Below, piece by piece: positions 14,169-44,112 of a DNA stretch of 64,000 bases. How positions within the stretch are numbered: the stretch's first letter is position 1; every line of letters starts with the position of its first letter. Both the position numbers and the translations under genes were made by a program. The stretch covers positions 62,001 to 126,000 of the forward strand of contig NZ_VULQ01000002.1 in the NCBI RefSeq assembly GCF_009696575.1, in the 5' to 3' direction. The DNA is from Anaerococcus porci. Lineage in GTDB: Bacteria; Bacillota; Clostridia; Tissierellales; Peptoniphilaceae. The notes under the pieces are model-generated. The model was not told the DNA's origin. It ran no database searches and was given only the letters and a program-made list of their open reading frames with translations.

Positions 14169-14681
14169 TTATACTGCACCTATTTTTTTTAAATGTTCAA
14201 TAATAAAACCTGTACTTAATCCCACAAAAAATCCTGTAAAAATCCCTATAAAAACTAGTATAGGAAAATAATAAAACATCTTTAAATTAGACATAAATAC
14301 CGCTGCAACTATTATTTGCCCAAAATTGTGAAAGAAAGCTCCTAGTTCACTTACACCAATTAATGAGAAATCATCTCCTATTTTTTTTAATCCTATATAC
14401 ATTGCTGTGGTTGAAAAAATAGCCCCTACAAAAGAATAGAAAAATGACATTACCTGTCCTGTTATTAAAACAAGTAAGAGTGATTTTAAAGCACTAACAG
14501 AAAGTGATTTCTTATAATCATAAATGTATATTGAAACAAATATAACTATATTTGAAAAACCGAGCTTTGCACCAGGTATTGGTACGGGCATAGGTATCAT
14601 AGACTCTATTAAAGATATAGCAAGAGATAGGGCTGTTAGTAAGCTTAAATTTATATAAGTTTTAACATTTGATTCCTTCAT
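14169..14681 (-). CDS. Gx transporter family membrane protein (Hpre_diP_synt_I)
   Basis: 170 residues with five predicted membrane spans. The segment SLIESMIPMPVPIPGAKLGFSNI is the signature of the family once called heptaprenyl diphosphate synthase component I and now grouped with ECF-type S-component-like 'Gx transporters'. The substrate is unknown. It overlaps the NusG-II gene by 4 bases, a pairing common in clostridia, and some of these pairs lie near rnf or redox genes. Here rnfB ends about 400 bases upstream, though behind its own terminator. Confidence 0.85.
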   Translation of the reverse strand: MKESNVKTYINLSLLTALSLAISLIESMIPMPVPIPGAKLGFSNIVIFVSIYIYDYKKSLSVSALKSLLLVLITGQVMSFFYSFVGAIFSTTAMYIGLKKIGDDFSLIGVSELGAFFHNFGQIIVAAVFMSNLKMFYYFPILVFIGIFTGFFVGLSTGFIIEHLKKIGAV

Positions 14682-15070
14682 CCTACCACCTTATCTATTC
14701 CATCATCTTTGCTTTTTTCATCATCTTCTTCTATAATTTCTAATATAAGTCTATGTGGCAGACATACTATTGTTTCTCCACTTTTACTTATAGCTGGCAT
14801 ATGGGTACAAATAAGATCTCTACAATTTGCTTCTTTCATATTTACTTTACCATCTTTTATTTCTACAACATTGTACTTACCATTACCTATTTCTATTTTA
14901 AAGGTCTTATCCTTATCTAGTGGATATTTTCCATATTCTTTTCCATTTAACTCCACTAATAAATAATCCCCATTTACATTAGATTTAAATCTTTGCACAA
15001 AAAAAGCCATCAAAATACTCAATAGCAAAAGCGACACTATAACAATCAAATCTCTTCTTTTAATTTTCAT
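14678..15070 (-). CDS. NusG domain II-containing membrane-anchored protein
   Basis: 130 residues: a basic N-terminus, one membrane span (LIVIVSLLLLSILMAFFV) and an extracytoplasmic beta-rich domain of the NusG_II family with the Cys pair in NCRDLICTHMPAISKSGE and the CLPHRLIL ending. Family members accompany Gx transporters and Rnf or ApbE genes in clostridia. Their role is not established; a redox or flavin link is suggested only by context. It is the first gene of a unit running through the Gx transporter to radC and the mre cluster, with its own promoter. Confidence 0.82.
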   Translation of the reverse strand: MKIKRRDLIVIVSLLLLSILMAFFVQRFKSNVNGDYLLVELNGKEYGKYPLDKDKTFKIEIGNGKYNVVEIKDGKVNMKEANCRDLICTHMPAISKSGETIVCLPHRLILEIIEEDDEKSKDDGIDKVVG

Positions 15071-15478: not shown

Positions 15479-16276
15479 TTACCTTACTTCTATACATTTA
15501 GCTGGACATTTTTCAGCAGCTTCTTTTAGAAGTTCAATATCAAGTTCGTTTGATATAGTTTCTTTTGATAGGAAATTTTCCATTGAGAATCCTTCAGGAT
15601 AAGTTCTTGCACATATTGAACAACCTATACAACCTACCTTACAATTTCCTCTTACATCTTTTCCCTTGTCATGTGATGAGCAAATAACAATTGCCTTTTG
15701 TGAATATGGTACAAGCTCAATTATATTTTTTGGGCAAGTATCTACACAAGCCCCACATGCTACACACTTTTCTCTGTCAACAACGCTTACACCATTTTGC
15801 ATATGTATAGCATCAAAGTCGCATGCCTTAACACATGAACCACATCCTACACAACCATAATTACAAGCTTTTTTTCCACCAAATAAGCTAACTTGAGCTC
15901 TACAATCTTCTAAACCTTGATATTCAAATAAGTCTTTAGCATTATCACAGGTTCCATTGCATTTAACTACCGCTACTTTTTTTTCGCCTGCACCAGCTGG
16001 TTCAACACCCATGGCCTCTGCAACAGCATCTGTTGTAGGTTGACCGCCTATAACACAAGCTGAAACTGGAGCTTCTCCTTTAGCTATAGCATTCGCACAT
16101 CCATCACAGCCTGGATATCCACAAGCACCACAGTTTGCACCAGGTAGTGCATCTCTTACTCTTTCAACAATAGGATCTGTTTCTACTTCAAATTTTGTAC
16201 TTATTACACCCAATAACATAGCTAAGATAAAACCTAAAACAGCTAATACTATTGTTGGTATTATTATATTCATCAT
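15479..16276 (-). CDS. rnfB: Rnf complex subunit B (iron-sulfur electron-transfer subunit)
   Basis: 265 residues. It has an N-terminal membrane anchor (IIIPTIVLAVLGFILAM), then the FeS domain Cys cluster CGACGYPGCDGC, and ferredoxin-type clusters such as CVGCGSCVKAC and CVACGACVDTC, with a further Cys-rich motif CKVGCIGCSIC. RnfB accepts electrons from reduced ferredoxin and passes them to the membrane complex. It is the last gene of the rnfCDGEAB order typical of clostridia, 12 bases after rnfA, and is followed by a strong terminator. Confidence 0.96.
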   Translation of the reverse strand: MMNIIIPTIVLAVLGFILAMLLGVISTKFEVETDPIVERVRDALPGANCGACGYPGCDGCANAIAKGEAPVSACVIGGQPTTDAVAEAMGVEPAGAGEKKVAVVKCNGTCDNAKDLFEYQGLEDCRAQVSLFGGKKACNYGCVGCGSCVKACDFDAIHMQNGVSVVDREKCVACGACVDTCPKNIIELVPYSQKAIVICSSHDKGKDVRGNCKVGCIGCSICARTYPEGFSMENFLSKETISNELDIELLKEAAEKCPAKCIEVR

Positions 16277-16288
16277 TTTACTTCTCCT

Positions 16289-16864
16289 CTATGCTAATCC
16301 TGCAAATCCCATGAAGGCAATTGACATTAGTCCTAAAATAATCAAGGATATTGGAGCACCTTTGAAAGCTTCAGGAAGATCATTGTCTTCAACCTTTTCT
16401 CTTATTGATGCTAATATTACTAAAGCTATCAAAAATCCTACTGCAGCAGCAACTGAGTTTACTGTTGTCTCTAACAAGTTATATGAATCGTTAATATTCT
16501 TTATTGCTACACCCAAAACAATACAATTTGTTGTAATAAGTGGTAAATACACACCTAAGGCTTCATATAGATTTGGCATTGACTTTTTCATTATCATTTC
16601 TACAGTTTGCACCAAGGCAGCTATTACTAGTATGAAAACTACGGTTTGCAAGTATCCTATATTTAATGGATTTAATATGTAATATTGAATAACCCAAGTA
16701 ATAATAGAAGAAAGTGTAACTACAAAAATTACAGCAGCTCCCATTCCTTTAGCAGTCTCTACTTTATTTGTAACACCTAAGGTAGGACATATACCTAAAA
16801 ATTGTCCTAATACATAGTTATTTACAAATATTGATGCAATAATTATTGAAAATAAATTAGACAT
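16289..16864 (-). CDS. rnfA: Rnf complex subunit A
   Basis: 191 residues, six predicted membrane spans. Conserved sequences are NNYVLGQFLGICPTLGVTNK near the start and YLPLITTNCIVLGVAI in the middle, where a Cys pair coordinates the membrane FeS centre shared with RnfE. RnfA forms the ion-translocating core with RnfD and RnfE. It has a GGAGG ribosome-binding site and lies 9 bases after rnfE. Confidence 0.96.
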   Translation of the reverse strand: MSNLFSIIIASIFVNNYVLGQFLGICPTLGVTNKVETAKGMGAAVIFVVTLSSIITWVIQYYILNPLNIGYLQTVVFILVIAALVQTVEMIMKKSMPNLYEALGVYLPLITTNCIVLGVAIKNINDSYNLLETTVNSVAAAVGFLIALVILASIREKVEDNDLPEAFKGAPISLIILGLMSIAFMGFAGLA

Positions 16865-16873
16865 AATTTCCTC

Positions 16874-17545
16874 CTAATTATTTGCTTTTTTCTTTTTACT
16901 ATTTGATATAGCACTTGCTACAGCAAACATAATACCTAATATAATAAATGAAGATGCAGGTTGTACTAAAAATCCAACTGTAAAATCTTTTGGAATTATT
17001 CTAATATCCAATAGAGTACCATTACCAAACAATTCTCTAATCGTTGCAAGTATTGATATAGCTATAGTATAACCCAAGCCTTGTCCAAGACCGTCAACAA
17101 TTGATGCTAGTGGTCCATTTTGTGAAGCAAAGCCTTCAGCTCTTGCAAGAATTATACAGTTTACAACTATAAGTGGAATAAAGATTCCTAGTGATTCATC
17201 AAGTGCTGGCAAATATGCTTTTATTAGCATTTGTACCATAGTAACGAAACTTGCAATTACAACTATAAATGCTGGTATTCTTACTTCATCAGGTATAAAA
17301 TTTCTTAAAAGTGAAATAACAAGATTTGACAAAGTAAGTACAAATATTACAGCAGCCCCCATTCCTATCGCATTTGATAAGGATGAAGATATAGCAAGTA
17401 CAGAACACATACCAACCATTTGTACGAAAACTGGGTTATTTGAAAATATCCCATCTTTAAATACTTTTAATAGCTTAGGTGAATGTTTTTTTCTTCTTTC
17501 TTTTTCTTTTTGAACATCTATAGGTTTTCCAGTTTGTCTTTCCAT
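16874..17545 (-). CDS. rnfE: Rnf complex subunit E
   Basis: 223 residues. A charged cytoplasmic N-terminus (MERQTGKPIDVQKEKERRKKH) is followed by FKDGIFSNNPVFVQMVGMC and six membrane spans, including the family core SLGIFIPLIVVNCIILARAE with the conserved Cys. It is paralogous to RnfA; the two pack pseudo-symmetrically. The N-terminal extension is a little longer than in Gammaproteobacterial homologues. The C-terminus ends in a lysine run. Confidence 0.95.
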   Translation of the reverse strand: MERQTGKPIDVQKEKERRKKHSPKLLKVFKDGIFSNNPVFVQMVGMCSVLAISSSLSNAIGMGAAVIFVLTLSNLVISLLRNFIPDEVRIPAFIVVIASFVTMVQMLIKAYLPALDESLGIFIPLIVVNCIILARAEGFASQNGPLASIVDGLGQGLGYTIAISILATIRELFGNGTLLDIRIIPKDFTVGFLVQPASSFIILGIMFAVASAISNSKKKKANN

Positions 17546-17555
17546 ATCTATCCCC

Positions 17556-18095
17556 CTACTTTATGCTTTCTAATACTTCTCTTGCAGTATTGATACCATT
17601 TACAATAGAAGTTGTAGATAGTGTTGCTCCTGAAATTCCTACAATTTCATTTTCAGATCCAGATTGTGAAGCACCAACCTTATTGTCCATGCTTACTCCC
17701 TTAACACCTTCTTTAAACCAATCTTCTTCCATTTGAAGACCAAATCCTGCAGATTCTGAATGTTTCAATGGAGAAAATCCTGTTATTTTATTGTCACTAT
17801 CAACACCTAATATGAACTCGATGTCTCCACCATATCCACCCTTAGAAATGATATCGAATACATAACCCTTGTCTCCATCAGCCTTATATACTCCTACTAT
17901 AGAAGCAGGAAAATTTCCTTTTACTTCTTCAAAATTATTTGCCTCTGGGAAAGCCACCTTTAATGATTCGTTTAATTTTTCTTGATCTGCTTCTTTTATA
18001 ATTGGCTCTGTAATTGAGTTTGTAAAAGCTAGAACCAAGGCTGACACAGCTGTTATAATTAATAATTTGATTCCTAATTTTAATGCTTTACTCAT
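17556..18095 (-). CDS. rnfG: Rnf complex subunit G (covalent FMN subunit)
   Basis: About 179 residues with one N-terminal membrane span (LLIITAVSALVLAF) and an extracytoplasmic FMN-binding domain. The flavin-attachment motif SGATLSTT near the C-terminus is intact (IVGISGATLSTTS); family members carry FMN on this Thr, added by ApbE. I chose ATG at 18095, overlapping the rnfD stop by 8 bases with GGGGGAAAAAG before it, rather than an upstream ATG at 18125 that would overlap rnfD by 38 bases. No apbE gene is in the window. Confidence 0.94.
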   Translation of the reverse strand: MSKALKLGIKLLIITAVSALVLAFTNSITEPIIKEADQEKLNESLKVAFPEANNFEEVKGNFPASIVGVYKADGDKGYVFDIISKGGYGGDIEFILGVDSDNKITGFSPLKHSESAGFGLQMEEDWFKEGVKGVSMDNKVGASQSGSENEIVGISGATLSTTSIVNGINTAREVLESIK

Positions 18096-19032
18096 CTTTT
18101 TCCCCCTTATCATTAGCATGACCAAATACCTTTGGCATTGTTTTACTATCTATAAGTGGTACTAGTAAATTCATTAGAAGTATTGAATAAGATACACCTT
18201 CTGGGTAGCCACCAAACACCCTAATAACAGATGTTATAAGTCCACAACCTATTGCGAATATTATCTCGCCATTTTTTGTAACAGGACTTGTTGTATAGTC
18301 AGTTGCCATGAAAAATGCACCTAACATCAAACCACCTGACAATAGTTGTTCTAATATTCCATCAAAAGATTTGTTAAAAATAACCAATAAAACTGCTGTT
18401 GTTAATATGTAAACTAAAGGTATTCTTAAAGAAATAACTTTTCTAAAAACTAGATATAAGGCTCCAATCAAAATGGCAAGTGTTGAAACTTCACCAATAC
18501 ATCCACCCATATTTCCTATAAACATATCTATAAGTGATAGTTTAGACCTATCAGATAATGCTGTTGCAGCTGATACGGCTGAAACTCCACCCGGTGCTAC
18601 AAAGTAAGACATTGAACTTGACCATGAAGCAAGTAAAAATGCTCTAGCTCCTAGGGCTGGATTTACAATATTTTGTCCTATACCACCAAAAAATTGCTTA
18701 CATATAACTATAGCAAAAACCGCACCTATAACTGTTTGCCAAATTGGCATTGTAACAGGTAGGTTATAAGCTAAAAGTAAACCTGTAACTACTGCTGACA
18801 AGTCATTTATTGTAGACTCTCTTTTCATTACCTTATTTGAAATAAACTCTGCTACCACACAGCTTATAACTGAACATAAGATTAAGATTAATGCTCTAAT
18901 TCCAAAGAAATAAACGCCCGCTAAACCTGTTGGAACCAAGGCGATTATTACATCGAGCATCTCTTTACTAACAGTTCTCTCGCTTCTTAAATGAGGAGAG
19001 GATGATACTACTAATTTATTTTGCGCTTGCAT
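18088..19032 (-). CDS. rnfD: Rnf complex subunit D
   Basis: 314 residues with about nine membrane spans. Conserved sequences include SSPHLRSERTVSKEMLDVIIALVP at the start, FFGGIGQNIVNPALGARAFLL, and the flavin-attachment-like SAVSAATALSDRS segment. RnfD carries covalent FMN in characterised complexes and is a main candidate for ion translocation. The final HANDKGEKDE tail overlaps the rnfG start. Confidence 0.95.
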   Translation of the reverse strand: MQAQNKLVVSSSPHLRSERTVSKEMLDVIIALVPTGLAGVYFFGIRALILILCSVISCVVAEFISNKVMKRESTINDLSAVVTGLLLAYNLPVTMPIWQTVIGAVFAIVICKQFFGGIGQNIVNPALGARAFLLASWSSSMSYFVAPGGVSAVSAATALSDRSKLSLIDMFIGNMGGCIGEVSTLAILIGALYLVFRKVISLRIPLVYILTTAVLLVIFNKSFDGILEQLLSGGLMLGAFFMATDYTTSPVTKNGEIIFAIGCGLITSVIRVFGGYPEGVSYSILLMNLLVPLIDSKTMPKVFGHANDKGEKDE

Positions 19033-19043
19033 TTAATTCTCCT

Positions 19044-20360
19044 CTACTTTCCTGCTTGACGTATTTGTCTTTTTCCAAATCTTATAGCCTCTACTAAAGG
19101 TCTTTTGGAAGGACAAATATATGAACATGAGCCACACTCTATACAATCAAGTATGTTTAACTTTTGTGCCTTATCAAATTTTTCTTTAAGTGAATATTTA
19201 TGAATTAATAAAGGCATTAATCCCACTGGACATACGCTTACACACTTTCCACACCTAATGCATGGATTTGTAATTGGTGCTTTAGATTCTTCTCTATTTA
19301 AAACTAAGATACAATTTGAAGCTTTTTCTACTGGTTGTTTAATATTTGGTTGAGCAATACCCATCATAGGTCCACCATTTATAACCTTACCAAAATCTTC
19401 CTTGAATCCACCTGCTTCATTTATCATATCTTCAAAGCTAGTACCAATCCTAACTAGGAAATTAGATGGTTCTTTAATGCCATGTCCTGTTACTGTAACG
19501 TATCTTTCAATAAGAGGTTTGTTATAATAAACTGCCTCATAAATTGCATTAGCACTTGACACATTGGATACAATAACACCAACATCCATTGGCAAGCCAC
19601 CTGATGGGACTTCTCTATGTAAAACTGCATTTATAATTCTTTTTTCATCACCTTGAGGGTATTTTGTCACCATAGTTGCAAGCTCAAGTTTTGAGGAGTT
19701 CTTATCAGCTAATGCTTTTTTTATTTTTTCTATAGCATTTGGCTTATTATCTTCTATAGCAATAATTCCCCTTTTTGCATCAACAGCCATGACTAATAGT
19801 TCAAGTGCATCAACTATTATCTCAGGTTTTGTTTTTAAAAGAAGATCATCACATGTAACATAAGGTTCACATTCTGCACCATTTATAATAACAGTATCAA
19901 TTGCTTTATTTGGTGAATATTTTATATGTGCAGGAAATGCTGCTCCTCCCATACCTACAAGACCATTTTCTTTCATCCTATTAACTATTTTTTCTTTAGT
20001 TAAATTAAGGATTTCTTCTTTTTCAAACTTCATCTCTTGGTCATAGCCTTCAGTGTTAATCACTACAGCCTTACTATTTTTACCGCTAGCTGTTTGAATG
20101 TCAATTATACTGTCTACTTTACCATTTACTGATGAATGGATATTAGCTGAGAAATTACCTACAGCCTCACCTATAAGCTGTCCTATTTCGACTTCGTCGT
20201 TTTTCTTAACTAAACATTTGCTTGGAGCTCCAATGTGTTGAGTCAAAGGAATAGTAACCTTTAAAGGAATCTTAGCGATTTTTAGATTATTATTCTCGCT
20301 TAATTCCTTAAACTCTGGAATCTTAACTCCATTGTCAAATGACAAATTTTCTAGAGCCAT
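19044..20360 (-). CDS. rnfC: Rnf complex subunit C (NADH-binding, iron-sulfur)
   Basis: About 438 residues. The N-terminal barrel-sandwich part (PLTQHIGAPSKCLVKKNDEVEIGQ) precedes the NADH/FMN-binding region of the 51-kDa type (KENGLVGMGGAAFPAHIK, INGAECEPYVTCDD, GVIVSNVSSA), then two [4Fe-4S] motifs, CIRCGKCVSVC and CIECGSCSYIC. RnfC oxidises or reduces NAD on the cytoplasmic side. I chose ATG at 20360, which has AAGGAGAG in front, over an ATG five codons upstream. It is the first gene of rnfCDGEAB. Confidence 0.96.
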   Translation of the reverse strand: MALENLSFDNGVKIPEFKELSENNNLKIAKIPLKVTIPLTQHIGAPSKCLVKKNDEVEIGQLIGEAVGNFSANIHSSVNGKVDSIIDIQTASGKNSKAVVINTEGYDQEMKFEKEEILNLTKEKIVNRMKENGLVGMGGAAFPAHIKYSPNKAIDTVIINGAECEPYVTCDDLLLKTKPEIIVDALELLVMAVDAKRGIIAIEDNKPNAIEKIKKALADKNSSKLELATMVTKYPQGDEKRIINAVLHREVPSGGLPMDVGVIVSNVSSANAIYEAVYYNKPLIERYVTVTGHGIKEPSNFLVRIGTSFEDMINEAGGFKEDFGKVINGGPMMGIAQPNIKQPVEKASNCILVLNREESKAPITNPCIRCGKCVSVCPVGLMPLLIHKYSLKEKFDKAQKLNILDCIECGSCSYICPSKRPLVEAIRFGKRQIRQAGK

Positions 20361-20392
20361 AATCTCTCCTTTCATTTTTTATGTATAAACAC

Positions 20393-40717: not shown

Positions 40718-41332
40718 CTAATATATCTTTAATTTCTAAAGGCTCCTTCACTATATAAGATGCCCTTTTAAATTCACCTATATTACCATATCCATATTCT
40801 ACACCTATAGATTTAAGTCCAAGTTTAAAGCTTGCATTTATATCATATAGCCTATCACCTATCATTATAGACTCATCTCTTTTTAAATTATTTTTTCTAA
40901 GTAGACTTTCAAGAACCCTAACTTTTGTATTCAAACTTTCTGTAGAACCTTCTACATAAGTAAAATAATTACCTATTCCAAAATAATCAAGTATTTTTAA
41001 GCTAGATTCCCTACCCTTGCTCGTAGCAACGAAGAGTCTATAAGAATTATTGTATAGGTATTTAATTAACTCCTCAATTCCTTCATACATACTTGTCTCA
41101 TACATTCCTTTTTCAAAATAATAATATCTATAATAATCTACTGCTTCATCTGCCTTGGCTTCTCCTACTTCTTTTACGAAAGACTCTCTAAGTGGTGGGC
41201 CTATATATTTTTTAAATCATCGACTTTATAAATTATATCCATCTTATCTAGACTATATTCAAAAGCCTTAATAATACCTTCTCCTGATTTTGAAATAGTC
41301 CCATCAAGGTCAAATATTATATTTTTTATCAT
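40704..41332 (-). pseudogene. HAD-family phosphatase (Gph-like) with frameshift
   Basis: Two minus strand frames together give one HAD hydrolase. The first starts at ATG 41332 (MIKNIIFDLDGTISKSGEG, the catalytic Asp motif) and hits a stop soon after VDDLKN. The second resumes as GPPLRESFVKE, a conserved cap-domain phrase, and continues to the 133-residue ATG frame at 41105 with VATSKGR (motif II) and ESIMIGDRLYDINAS (motif IV). The shift maps to a run of six A (41208-41213), where seven would restore DDLKKYIGPPL. It could be a true pseudogene, slippage-prone expression or a sequencing error. Confidence 0.8.
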
Positions 41333-41391
41333 ATTAACTCCTTTTATAATATTTTAGCATTTAATATAAAAGTTAAATTATCACAAAAAAA

Positions 41392-41541
41392 GAGGCAGTT
41401 GCAGAATGAATTAATCGTTCCAAAATCATTACAAGCTCTTAACGACAATTTGTCTCCATGAGCTGGAAGACTATTCTCAAATTGTCTATGAGTAACTTGT
41501 AATGATGAAACGTTATAAATTCATAATTTTGCAACAGCCCC
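41392..41541 (-). mobile_element. MITE-like palindromic element, copy 2
   Basis: About 150 bp with inverted termini (GGCAGTTGCAGAATGAATTAA and, from the other end, GGGGCTGTTGCAAAATTATG) and nested dyads ATCATTACAAG/CTTGTAATGAT and GACAATTTG/CAAATTGTC. It sits directly between the HAD pseudogene and the lipoprotein gene, 7 bases from the lipoprotein stop, so it may act as that gene's transcript end. Confidence 0.85.
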
Positions 41542-41547
41542 TAATTT

Positions 41548-42684
41548 CTATTTACTTGCTGCATCATAGATTACATCTAGATAACCAACTGCATCTGTAA
41601 GAGTTGCGCCACTAATTTCATCTATAGCTTTTCCTTTTTCATTTTCATCTGCTATCTTTTTGATTTCTTCAGCTGTTTTTCCTTTTGTATACTCTTCTAT
41701 AGCCTTGAAATTTTCAGATATGTCATTTTTAGCTTTAGCATGTTCTTTCATAAGAGCTGAATATTCCCTATCGTTTTCAAGTTTAGAAGCCAATTGATTT
41801 TTCTTATCAGCATAGTTTTCGCCAAACTTTTTATCTGAATTTGGAACACCTTTTTCACCAAAATATTGATATTCATCAATTGATGTTGCTACAATCTTAT
41901 CATTTTGTAATAAAACAAATACATCTGATACTGAATTATCTGTATTTCTACCTCCAAATGCTGATTTAAGTGTTAAATTGTCAACACTTTGTGTATCGGC
42001 TTTTACAGCAAATTTATCATTTTTTGCTGTATAAACTATAGACTTAAGATATGCTTTTGTATCTACTAGAGTTGCTCCACTTACTGCATCTATAGCTTTT
42101 CCATCTTCAGCATTATTTATAACTTCTTCTATTTCAGAGATGGTTTTTCCTGAAACAAAGTTTTCAATTGCTTTGAAATTATCTTTAATAGTAACAGTTG
42201 AACCAGCTTTCTCTTCCATTAGTTTAGAGTAAGCATCGCTATTTTCTACCTTAGAACCTAAGATTTTACCTTCTTTAGCCCCTTTTTTGAACTCTTTTTC
42301 TCCATCTTGATTTGGAAGTGCTTTAAATTCTTTTTCATCAAAATATTGGAATTCATCTAAAGATGCTGTTATTATCTTATCTGCTTGAGTAACCACCACA
42401 GTTCTAGCAAATGAGCCCTCCCCATGTGGAGCTGATAAAGATCTTCTTAAAACTATATCTTCACTCGAAAATTTACTAGCTTTGGAATCTTCTTCATTAG
42501 ATGTGCTTTTTTCGTTGCTCTTATCTTCATTAGATGCTATTTTTTTATTTGAAGCTTCATCGCTTTTTGCAGAAGTAACTGCATTTGATTTTGTTTCTGC
42601 TGTATTATTGTTATTATTAGAACAAGCTGTAAAAGCTAATGACAAGGCAACAGCCAAAGCTGTTAATTTTATTTTTTTATTCAT
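41548..42684 (-). CDS. Lipoprotein with two FMN-binding-like (SGAT) domains
   Basis: 378 residues. Signal peptide with lipobox FTAC (Cys21), a low-complexity Asn/Ser/Lys/Glu linker to about residue 72, then two similar domains of about 140 residues. Each begins with a beta segment (VVVTQADKIITASLDEFQYF at 96-115; FVLLQNDKIVATSIDEYQYF at 256-275), contains NFKAIE-(N/E)-(F/Y)-x-x-GKT, and ends in DAVSGAT (Thr205) or DEISGAT (Thr361). This is the Asp-x-x-Ser-Gly-Ala-Thr motif on which ApbE attaches FMN in RnfG and in multiflavin lipoproteins such as PplA. An extracellular electron carrier is plausible but inferred. The gene stands alone with a strong promoter. Confidence 0.75.
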   Translation of the reverse strand: MNKKIKLTALAVALSLAFTACSNNNNNTAETKSNAVTSAKSDEASNKKIASNEDKSNEKSTSNEEDSKASKFSSEDIVLRRSLSAPHGEGSFARTVVVTQADKIITASLDEFQYFDEKEFKALPNQDGEKEFKKGAKEGKILGSKVENSDAYSKLMEEKAGSTVTIKDNFKAIENFVSGKTISEIEEVINNAEDGKAIDAVSGATLVDTKAYLKSIVYTAKNDKFAVKADTQSVDNLTLKSAFGGRNTDNSVSDVFVLLQNDKIVATSIDEYQYFGEKGVPNSDKKFGENYADKKNQLASKLENDREYSALMKEHAKAKNDISENFKAIEEYTKGKTAEEIKKIADENEKGKAIDEISGATLTDAVGYLDVIYDAASK

Positions 42685-42725
42685 ATATACTCCTCTTTAG
42701 AAAAATTGAAATCATTTACTTTTTT

Positions 42726-42753
42726 ATTATACATCATTATTAGTATGTGTCAA
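42726..42753 (-). promoter_or_regulatory. Promoter of the twin-SGAT lipoprotein
   Basis: Minus strand consensus TTGACA (42748-42753), 16-base spacer, consensus TATAAT (42726-42731). One of the strongest promoters in the window. Confidence 0.85.
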
Positions 42754-43073
42754 TTAATACTTAATTAATAAATATATCGTAATATAATACAATGAAAATA
42801 TAATTATATTTAAAATAATAATTAATTATCTTTTAATATATTTCAAATGACCACATCCACTAAAATTCTATAATGTTTTCAAATTTTAATAGATGGAACA
42901 TAAATAAGTAACTCAAGTCTTTTACCATACTCATTCTACAAAGGGAATTCTTTAAAATCCCTAAAATAAAAATTCTGCTTATAAGCTTCTAATGTAGTTT
43001 TAATTCCTATATGAAATTCCATATATTCGTAAAATGTTGCTAAATCATATTACTTGATTAGATTTTTCATCAA
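42754..43073. other. Non-coding interval
   Basis: About 320 AT-rich bases upstream of the lipoprotein promoter. No ORF, tRNA or known RNA structure is apparent. Confidence 0.4.
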
Positions 43074-43111
43074 ATAAAAACCGTAAATAGAAAATTTCTC
43101 TATCTACGGTT
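43074..43111 (-). terminator. Terminator of the DUF3784-like gene
   Basis: Minus strand stem AACCGTAGATAGA/TCTATTTACGGTT with one mismatch, followed by TTTTT. Confidence 0.75.
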
Positions 43112-43154
43112 AATACGTTATTTTGGCTTATTTATTAGCAATTTATAAAAAATA

Positions 43155-43502
43155 TTAACTTCTCATAGAATAATTTATAACTACAATTCCTAAAATCGTA
43201 ATTATTCCAGACAACCCCCATGCTCCCATAAGAATATCATTATAAAGCTTAATATTCTTAACAAAAAAACTAGACAAAAAGGCAATAACTAAAGGTATAC
43301 TCATTGTAAAAGTCATTTTTTTGACTTTAGATAGATATCCTTTTCTTATTAGCTCTTCTTTCTTGTCTTCTTCCATAGTATTAAATCCTGCTATAATATT
43401 TCCATTTGTCTTATCTATCATATATGAAGAAAATAATGTTAAAATAATCGGTATCAATAAAACTATTTTAACAGTAATATCTTTGGGATCCGCTAAATTC
43501 AT
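43155..43502 (-). CDS. DUF3784-like small membrane protein
   Basis: About 115 residues with three predicted membrane spans. The phrase IIAGFNTMEEDKKEELIRKGYLSK between span 1 and span 2 is typical of DUF3784 proteins ('aGyntms-ee-k-yd-kkl'). Function is unknown; relatives are often near immunity or surface genes. I chose ATG 43502, with GAAGGAGAG before it; the longer frame starts at a TTG inside that ribosome-binding site. It sits alone in the accessory island. Confidence 0.65.
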   Translation of the reverse strand: MNLADPKDITVKIVLLIPIILTLFSSYMIDKTNGNIIAGFNTMEEDKKEELIRKGYLSKVKKMTFTMSIPLVIAFLSSFFVKNIKLYNDILMGAWGLSGIITILGIVVINYSMRS

Positions 43503-43716: not shown

Positions 43717-44112
43717 TTAATAACACCAGTCTAGTCCATAATAATGTACCTGGCATCTTTGCCATATTACATTTACGAATGTTTCTTTTATTACTTTTAC
43801 TAGTAGTGCTTTTTCATTTCTTTGATATCTTTCAAAGACTTCTGTTGAGAATTTACCATCTCTTGTCCTAGGTACTCTTAAAGTTAATGTTCCTATTTTG
43901 GTTGTATAGTCACGTTCATAGTATCCATTACGATAAGTAGTTCTACTAGGATCTCTTTGATAGGCTGTATTTTCTAAATATTCATCTCTTTCTTTTTCCA
44001 TAAGCTCGTTAAAAACTTTTGTTAAGATAGATTTGGCAATTTTATTATCTACAGATTCATTAATTAAATTTTGTATTTCTTCTTGATTAATTGTAAAATG
44101 TAATTGGATCAT
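43717..44112 (-). pseudogene. IS256-family (mutator-type) transposase with internal deletion
   Basis: 131 codons. The first ~100 residues are a normal IS256-family N-terminus (LHFTINQEEIQNLI, AYQRDPSRTTYRNGYYERDY, VPRTRDGKFSTEVFERYQRNEKALL). The frame then jumps directly to IKETFVNVIWQRCQVHY, which in full transposases lies some 120 residues later, near the second catalytic region. So an in-frame internal deletion removed the first catalytic Asp region, and the C-terminal third is also missing. The protein cannot transpose. The ATG has a ribosome-binding site AGGAGGAACAA. Confidence 0.88.

Follow-up and report, generated by a model that had tools for sequence, protein, structure and literature searches.

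Carried on the minus strand of the window (the whole stretch of 64,000 nucleotides of Anaerococcus porci DNA that was analyzed) is a gene encoding a 378-amino-acid lipoprotein, composed of two repeats that each close in a flavinylation motif (Table 1). The lipobox cysteine is invariant in all 20 of the sequences aligned (its own and 19 from the genus). The signal peptide is followed by a polar linker, much of which (residues 28-66) falls below a pLDDT of 50 in the structure predicted by AF2. The repeats, each approximately 145-150 amino acids long, align with one another at 41% identity (E 2e-32), with strand 3 ending in EFQYF in the first and EYQYF in the second. The sequence and the repeat alignment bear out the first-pass annotation of this DNA in its coordinates for the gene, in its placement of Cys21, Thr205 and Thr361, and in its recognition of the two repeats and their pentapeptides. 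The very low E-values with which both domains match the family's own profile arise by construction, since the profile was built from the same family.

That annotation also claimed a strong promoter for the gene, and a perfect -35/-10 pair was indeed found upstream. The surrounding region (41300-43200) contains 14 promoter-like sites against an expectation of 11.2, and therefore it is the perfect match alone that is notable.

Table 1. Features of the lipoprotein gene and of related genes and repeats within the window
Feature	Position	Strand	Basis
Gene for the 378-aa lipoprotein with two FMN-bind2-type domains	41548-42684	minus	ORF, ATG start
Signal peptide, lipobox FTAC, predicted lipidated Cys21 (within SLAFTAC)	42622-42684	minus	sequence
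Ser/Asn/Lys/Glu low-complexity polar linker, residues 22-73	42466-42621	minus	sequence and predicted structure
Domain 1, residues 74-222	42019-42465	minus	own-profile E 5e-62; AF2
Flavinylation motif DAVSGAT, residues 199-205, Thr205	42070-42090	minus	motif match
Domain 2, residues 234-377	41554-41985	minus	own-profile E 6e-54
Flavinylation motif DEISGAT, residues 355-361, Thr361	41602-41622	minus	motif match
Perfect sigma-70-type promoter consensus TTGACA-16-TATAAT, 12/12	42726-42753	minus	promoter-site scan
rnfC-D-G-E-A-B	15479-20375	minus	RnfG by Pfam and NCBIfam; other rnf names read from translations
RnfG, classic FMN_bind protein	17556-18125	minus	Pfam, NCBIfam; TIGR01947 87 bits, cut-off 102
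EetA-like gene (NusG_II), after rnfB	14678-15070	minus	Pfam; name by analogy with the Enterococcus locus
EetB-like gene (Hpre_diP_synt_I), after rnfB	14169-14681	minus	Pfam; name by analogy with the Enterococcus locus
IS256/Mutator-family transposase fragment	43717-44112
Repeat of ~155 bp, MITE-like	41385-41542

The flavinylation motifs and the identity of the domain

Both repeats fit exactly the ApbE motif as it has been defined, D-x-x-[S/T]-G-A-[S/T] (PMC12052999). When the residues of the mature protein were shuffled 200,000 times, at least one motif appeared in 262 of the shuffles and two motifs in none. Conservation was assessed over an alignment (A4) of 97 single domains, drawn from 75 loci in named genomes, in which the lipoprotein of the window is represented by domain 1 only. 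The alignment omits L051, L053, L058, L060, L061, L064, L072, L080, L083, L100, and L108 as near copies, fragments, or (L064) sequences with unread letters, and it also lacks the second domains of L045, L071, and L074. Within it, Thr occupies the attachment position of 96 of the 97 domains, the initial Asp of the motif is kept in 91, the Gly in 88, and the Ala preceding Thr in 86, while outside the motif Lys145, Tyr152, Ser153, and Gly179 are invariant. The motifs of the domains left out also retain Thr (the second domain of L074 has DAISGST, that of L045 ETVSGAT), the exception being the truncated second domain of L072, which has no motif.

The motif is subject to some variation. In 8/97 domains it takes the form D-x-x-[S/T/A]-G-C-T, with a Cys immediately N-terminal to the Thr predicted to be flavinylated, and the carriers are single-domain proteins of Clostridia (L079, L089, L090, L091, L092, L094, L096, and L106). 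The first repeat of the Anaerococcus tetradius protein (L048) reads EAVGKTD, having lost the Thr, and Glu replaces Gly (SEAT) in the second repeat of L036 and L038 and in both repeats of L073. A further sequence, D-[ATV]-V-S-A-A-T, is found at residues ~33-39, just past the N-terminal hydrophobic segment, in all six of the non-lipoprotein relatives of Caloramator/Thermosediminibacteraceae that were compared (L056, L059, L068, L070, L071, and L077). It may be either the site of signal peptidase cleavage or a flavinylation-like motif, the third in the protein where two others are present.

Standard family models do not reach the protein. Its score against Pfam FMN_bind (PF04205) is 13.0 bits (E 0.17), short of the gathering cut-off of 22 bits, and no NCBIfam model exceeds its cut-off; the best stretch in the NCBIfam models for RnfG and NqrC is the second motif alone (E 0.4 and 3.2, respectively). 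If weak Pfam matches (E <= 1) are considered over the 97 aligned domains, FMN_bind is found in 49, with a best E of 3.3e-4, and the next family in 6. The suggestion that the domains diverge from the textbook FMN_bind domain is upheld by the shortfall in bits and by the weak matches of the family. Comparison of profiles is more telling with PplA than with RnfG. Against nine PplA sequences, hhalign aligned the domain profile with a probability of 86 and a score of 44.3 (E 4.9e-6), where none of 40 controls with shuffled columns scored above 25.3, and PplA itself is a clear Pfam FMN_bind protein (E 1.2e-12). Against RnfG, the probability was 11 and the score 25.9, with an alignment extending little beyond the motif. 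That score hardly exceeds the maximum of the shuffled controls (24.3), and so direct homology with RnfG is not claimed from sequence.

Several other matches were judged to be due to chance. Pfam CCP_MauG gave a match below its cut-off to residues 292-334 (E 0.0072), and the same family appears in 2/97 of the aligned domains, a set that does not contain the domain 2 in which this match lies. PHROGs yielded seven weak matches, mostly at the signal peptide end, which were set aside. A search of PDB sequences with the lipoprotein returned nothing, and one with the A4 domain profile returned three chance matches (E >= 0.12), no FMN_bind entry among them.

The structure predicted by AF2 for the whole chain has a mean pLDDT of 85.5 and a pTM of 0.80 (64 residues have a pLDDT below 50), and that for residues 72-225 alone has a mean pLDDT of 93.9 and a pTM of 0.89. 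The pTM of the whole chain may hint at a confident arrangement of the two domains relative to each other in the model. The fold predicted for the domain begins with three strands and an insertion that includes one short strand, and continues with three helices, after which come the motif and a final helix; in domain 1, a loop (85-90) separates strands 1 and 2, strand 3 ends at residue 116, the extra strand occupies 140-144, and the next long helix begins at 149. Foldseek found no match at E <= 0.001 with either the full-length model or the single domain. The C. perfringens structure 3O6U, classed as FMN-bind1 (PMC11334425), was at rank 8 for the domain model (TM 0.58 by target and 0.48 by query, E 0.5) and at rank 37 for the full-length model, whose top matches were weak ones to SufU/IscU-type scaffolds. 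The predicted resemblance to the FMN_bind fold is therefore suggestive, not decisive.

Considered feature by feature, the domain shares with classic FMN_bind (RnfG, NqrC, 3O6U) three strands, a helix, the motif, a C-terminal helix, and Thr as the attachment site, but by eye it has ~30 residues more than that of RnfG, inserted after strand 3 and ahead of the first long helix and including an additional short strand. The likeness to PplA/Cad (NF041941), the EET (extracellular electron transfer) lipoprotein of Listeria and Enterococcus, extends to the plan of the whole protein, a lipoprotein of two domains with two D-x-x-[S/T]-G-A-T sites, and to a pattern SK..N...Y..MK..AG and a C-terminal helix. 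However, domains of the present type are some 30-40 residues longer (by eye), and the NF041941 cut-off of 325 bits is far off: the homolog L049 scores 45.7, and the lipoprotein of the window is unlisted at E <= 10.

A closer counterpart has been described. Huang et al. (2024, mSystems, PMC11334425) recognize two kinds of FMN_bind domain, FMN-bind1 of ~120 aa and FMN-bind2 of ~160 aa. The latter domains were identified by BLAST, often number two or four per protein, have insertions that separate strand 1 from strand 2 and strand 3 from helix 1, and pair into a pseudo-symmetric two-flavin unit; one model, from Erysipelotrichaceae, is described (PMC11334425). The lipoprotein of the window has in common with that description two copies of the domain, an insertion after strand 3, ahead of helix 1, failure to be detected by Pfam, and a rough length, although ~160 aa is stated there as against ~145-154 aa here. 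What the first-pass annotation proposed might be a new subfamily is very probably FMN-bind2: the divergence that it perceived is real, but the same features were already in print in 2024, to go by the published description. The term FMN-bind2 was found in the literature in that work and its preprint alone.

Single-domain relatives, a fusion with PG_binding_1 (L059), and proteins in which the domain accompanies classic FMN_bind (L057 and L064) show its use as a module. Four lipoproteins of Faecalibacterium (L057, L058, L060, and L061) bear an N-terminal DGVAGAT motif, which in L057 lies in the classic FMN_bind domain, ahead of two FMN-bind2-type domains. They are candidate flavin electron carriers for this genus of the gut.

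Companion genes and linkage to extracellular electron transfer loci

The genome possesses one ApbE, a gene that the first-pass reading had led one to look for, encoding 377 amino acids with a lipoprotein-like N-terminus. Its presence along with the lipoprotein is little informative, because ApbE and FMN_bind are both found in all 61 of the genomes searched. Classic FMN_bind genes number three: that for RnfG in the window and two others, which encode an FAD_binding_2 protein of 610 aa and a small protein of 114 aa. None of these matches is a PplA-like two-domain gene.

The same early reading had looked to the quinone pool or the Rnf side as a source of electrons, and rnf genes do lie in the same window, ~21 kb from the lipoprotein gene, followed by genes like eetA and eetB. 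NusG_II, the EetA-like family, is found in 61/61 genomes, and in at least 21 of them, including this one, comparison of coordinates places it <=3 kb from an RnfG-like FMN_bind match (in frames of 180-197 aa, one of 344 aa). Three of the genomes in which they are neighbors (G001, G007, and G014) lack the lipoprotein. Rnf-EetA is therefore a module widespread in the order rather than one peculiar to the lipoprotein. The EetB-like neighbor of rnf was considered in the window alone.

An association with extracellular electron transfer is seen in Enterococcus. In E. dispar and E. canintestini, the homolog sits between ndh2-eetA-eetB, on the opposite strand, and pplA-apbE-dmkA (EetA, PplA, and ApbE were named by family models, whereas the names Ndh2, EetB, and DmkA come from inspection of the translations), in the same cluster as pplA and beside it rather than replacing it. 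All ten genomes of the GTDB genus to which E. canintestini belongs have a PplA over the NF041941 cut-off, seven have the homolog, and in all seven the homolog adjoins pplA, with apbE in the same cluster. Two of these genomes (G061 and G062) served as entry points, chosen because they carry the homolog, so the independent count is 5/8 carriers, with 5/5 linked. In Lactiplantibacillus plantarum, flavin-dependent anode reduction requires Ndh2, EetA, and PplA (PMC9888254).

Elsewhere, apbE lies directly downstream of the homolog in a Bacillota MAG (L073) and ~160 bp upstream of it in Caloramator australicus (L056), and in Caloramator quimbayensis genes of the UbiD, UbiA, and Flavoprotein families lie upstream. 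Reference EET genes were absent from the flanks fetched (up to ~6 kb, ~1.5 kb for some genomes) of the loci from Anaerococcus, Faecalibacterium, and Thermosediminibacteraceae, and from those of another Enterococcus (L109), Vagococcus (L054), and Lacticaseibacillus (L062 and L065, both of the loci from that genus with full flanks). Nor was apbE found within 11 kb of the homolog in ten carriers drawn evenly from the phylum, the nearest being at ~11.5 kb (G204).

Distribution and genomic setting

The two-domain protein is encoded by 23 of 31 genomes of the genus, its own included (22 of the 30 others), with E <= 1.6e-35. Homologs from genomes of this GTDB genus look identical to those in named Anaerococcus records (L003 and L035, for instance, or L004 and L037), in keeping with the assignment to Anaerococcus. 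Of the 61 genomes searched, 28 gave a match at E <= 0.001, and 23 were counted, as the matches in the other five (G001, G007, G014, G018, and G035) cover the first ~80 residues alone. Over an even draw from the phylum, a homolog was found in 11 of 398 genomes, again including its own. In a gene tree of 37 two-domain sequences, rooted by midpoint, 18 rows from Peptoniphilaceae fall together (99/97), and Enterococcaceae and Lactobacillaceae form a separate group (100/99). The latter joins Peptoniphilaceae rather than Clostridia, and so an old transfer between groups is possible. Anaerococcus itself needs two changes in the tree, as the subgroup of the window also takes in Peptoniphilus stercorisuis (L039), albeit with low support (83/41).

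Most of the genus genomes without the protein have something else. At least six of these eight (G001, G003, G007, G008, G014, and G030) have several FMN_bind matches within one frame of 712-1649 aa, as compared with one of the 23 carriers among the matches listed (G005, 1217 aa). The difference, 6/8 versus 1/23 among the matches listed, has a Fisher p of 0.00025, a test that ignores kinship. In one such giant frame (L194 2341-6645), of 1434 aa, four stretches match FMN_bind, and Pfam shows no further domain at E <= 1e-4.

Traces of mobile elements near the gene, as described in the first-pass annotation, are real. The fragment of an IS256/Mutator-family transposase lies upstream of the gene, and the ~155-bp repeat, with ends resembling inverted repeats, lies at its 3' end and has 51 matches in the genome, ~40 of them spanning most of the repeat. 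Collections of plasmids and phages gave no match at E 1e-5, and in two related species (L035 and L037) the homolog is found among the same neighbors, judged by lengths and N-termini.

Proposed function and what it may mean

The computation supports the initial reading of the protein as a lipoprotein with two flavinylation motifs, and we think it probable that the protein serves as a lipid-anchored, two-flavin electron carrier at the cell surface. According to this model, the single ApbE of the genome would transfer FMN from FAD to Thr205 and Thr361 outside the membrane, and the two domains would pack as a pseudo-symmetric unit at the end of a flexible linker. Lipid anchor and linker together would let the two-flavin unit take electrons from a module in the membrane, most likely Rnf/EetA-EetB, and pass them to extracellular acceptors such as free flavins or metals. 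Alternatively, the acceptor may be an exported flavin reductase, perhaps the FAD_binding_2+FMN_bind protein of the same genome.

If that last route were the only one, then the lipoprotein, though flavinylated, would be not a general carrier but one that supplies electrons to a single, dedicated exported reductase, akin to fumarate or urocanate reductase. The genome does offer partners: the 610-aa protein has a lipoprotein-like N-terminus and scores 486 bits against TIGR01813 (cut-off 285), and the 114-aa FMN_bind protein also has a lipoprotein-like N-terminus. However, the 610-aa reductase carries an FMN_bind domain of its own and is encoded on another contig, and the homologs of E. dispar and E. 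canintestini sit with pplA and ndh2. We regard so narrow a role as unlikely.

Much less credible is a surface lipoprotein with no flavin at all, serving in binding or structure, whose motif is a structural turn inherited by descent. One might argue for it from the four residues outside the motif that are strictly invariant when Thr is not quite so, from the repeat of A. tetradius that has lost Thr, and from the lack of a significant fold match. Against this stand the Thr retained in all but one of the aligned domains, the adjacency of apbE in several lineages, and the linkage to EET loci in Enterococcus. Finally, it is hardly plausible that the gene was recently acquired on a mobile island and brought a new function, as the first-pass annotation supposed, for although the IS256 fragment and the multi-copy repeat flank it and four genes flanking it in the window, taken as references, were not found beside homologs in Anaerococcus (flanks of ~1.5 to 6 kb), acquisition is disfavored by the large share of genus genomes that carry the gene and by its clustering within Peptoniphilaceae, as well as by the neighbors kept in L035 and L037 and the absence of plasmid or phage matches.

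The two-flavin carrier favored here would be of a kind already known. Multi-flavinylated proteins in general were surveyed earlier (PMC8238504), and two have been characterized (PMC10339131). For Enterococcus, a pair of ApbE motifs in the Cad/PplA lipoprotein and its coupling to apbE have been noted, and cad-apbE pairs are also described in genomes without rnf (PMC7074142). A search (of titles and the openings of abstracts) in the literature on flavinylation, PplA, EET in Enterococcus and Anaerococcus, Faecalibacterium, and Caloramator found no paper on the present lipoprotein. Neither it nor its setting was found in print in the literature searched, nor were the linkage to the Enterococcus EET locus, the SGCT variants of the motif, and the complementary pattern with giant multi-FMN_bind proteins. 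The genomic evidence for a role in EET appears to be new and useful.

Since neither Pfam nor NCBIfam passes the lipoprotein, standard annotation overlooks the domain. A profile of the family brings out candidates for electron carriers in Anaerococcus, Faecalibacterium, Caloramator, and Thermosediminibacteraceae, and shows that the EET locus of some enterococci contains a second flavoprotein gene. Work on lactic acid bacteria has invoked an oxidoreductase, or an extracellular reductase, that is yet to be identified (PMC9888254; PMC8837199), and in the species that carry them, lipoproteins of the FMN-bind2 type offer a testable candidate for that reductase. More speculatively, two-domain FMN-bind2 lipoproteins might constitute a second, overlooked class of EET carrier in Gram-positive bacteria, standing beside PplA in part of Enterococcus, linking Rnf-EetA-EetB to the outside in Rnf-bearing anaerobes like this Anaerococcus, and perhaps, within Anaerococcus, interchangeable with the giant multi-FMN_bind proteins.
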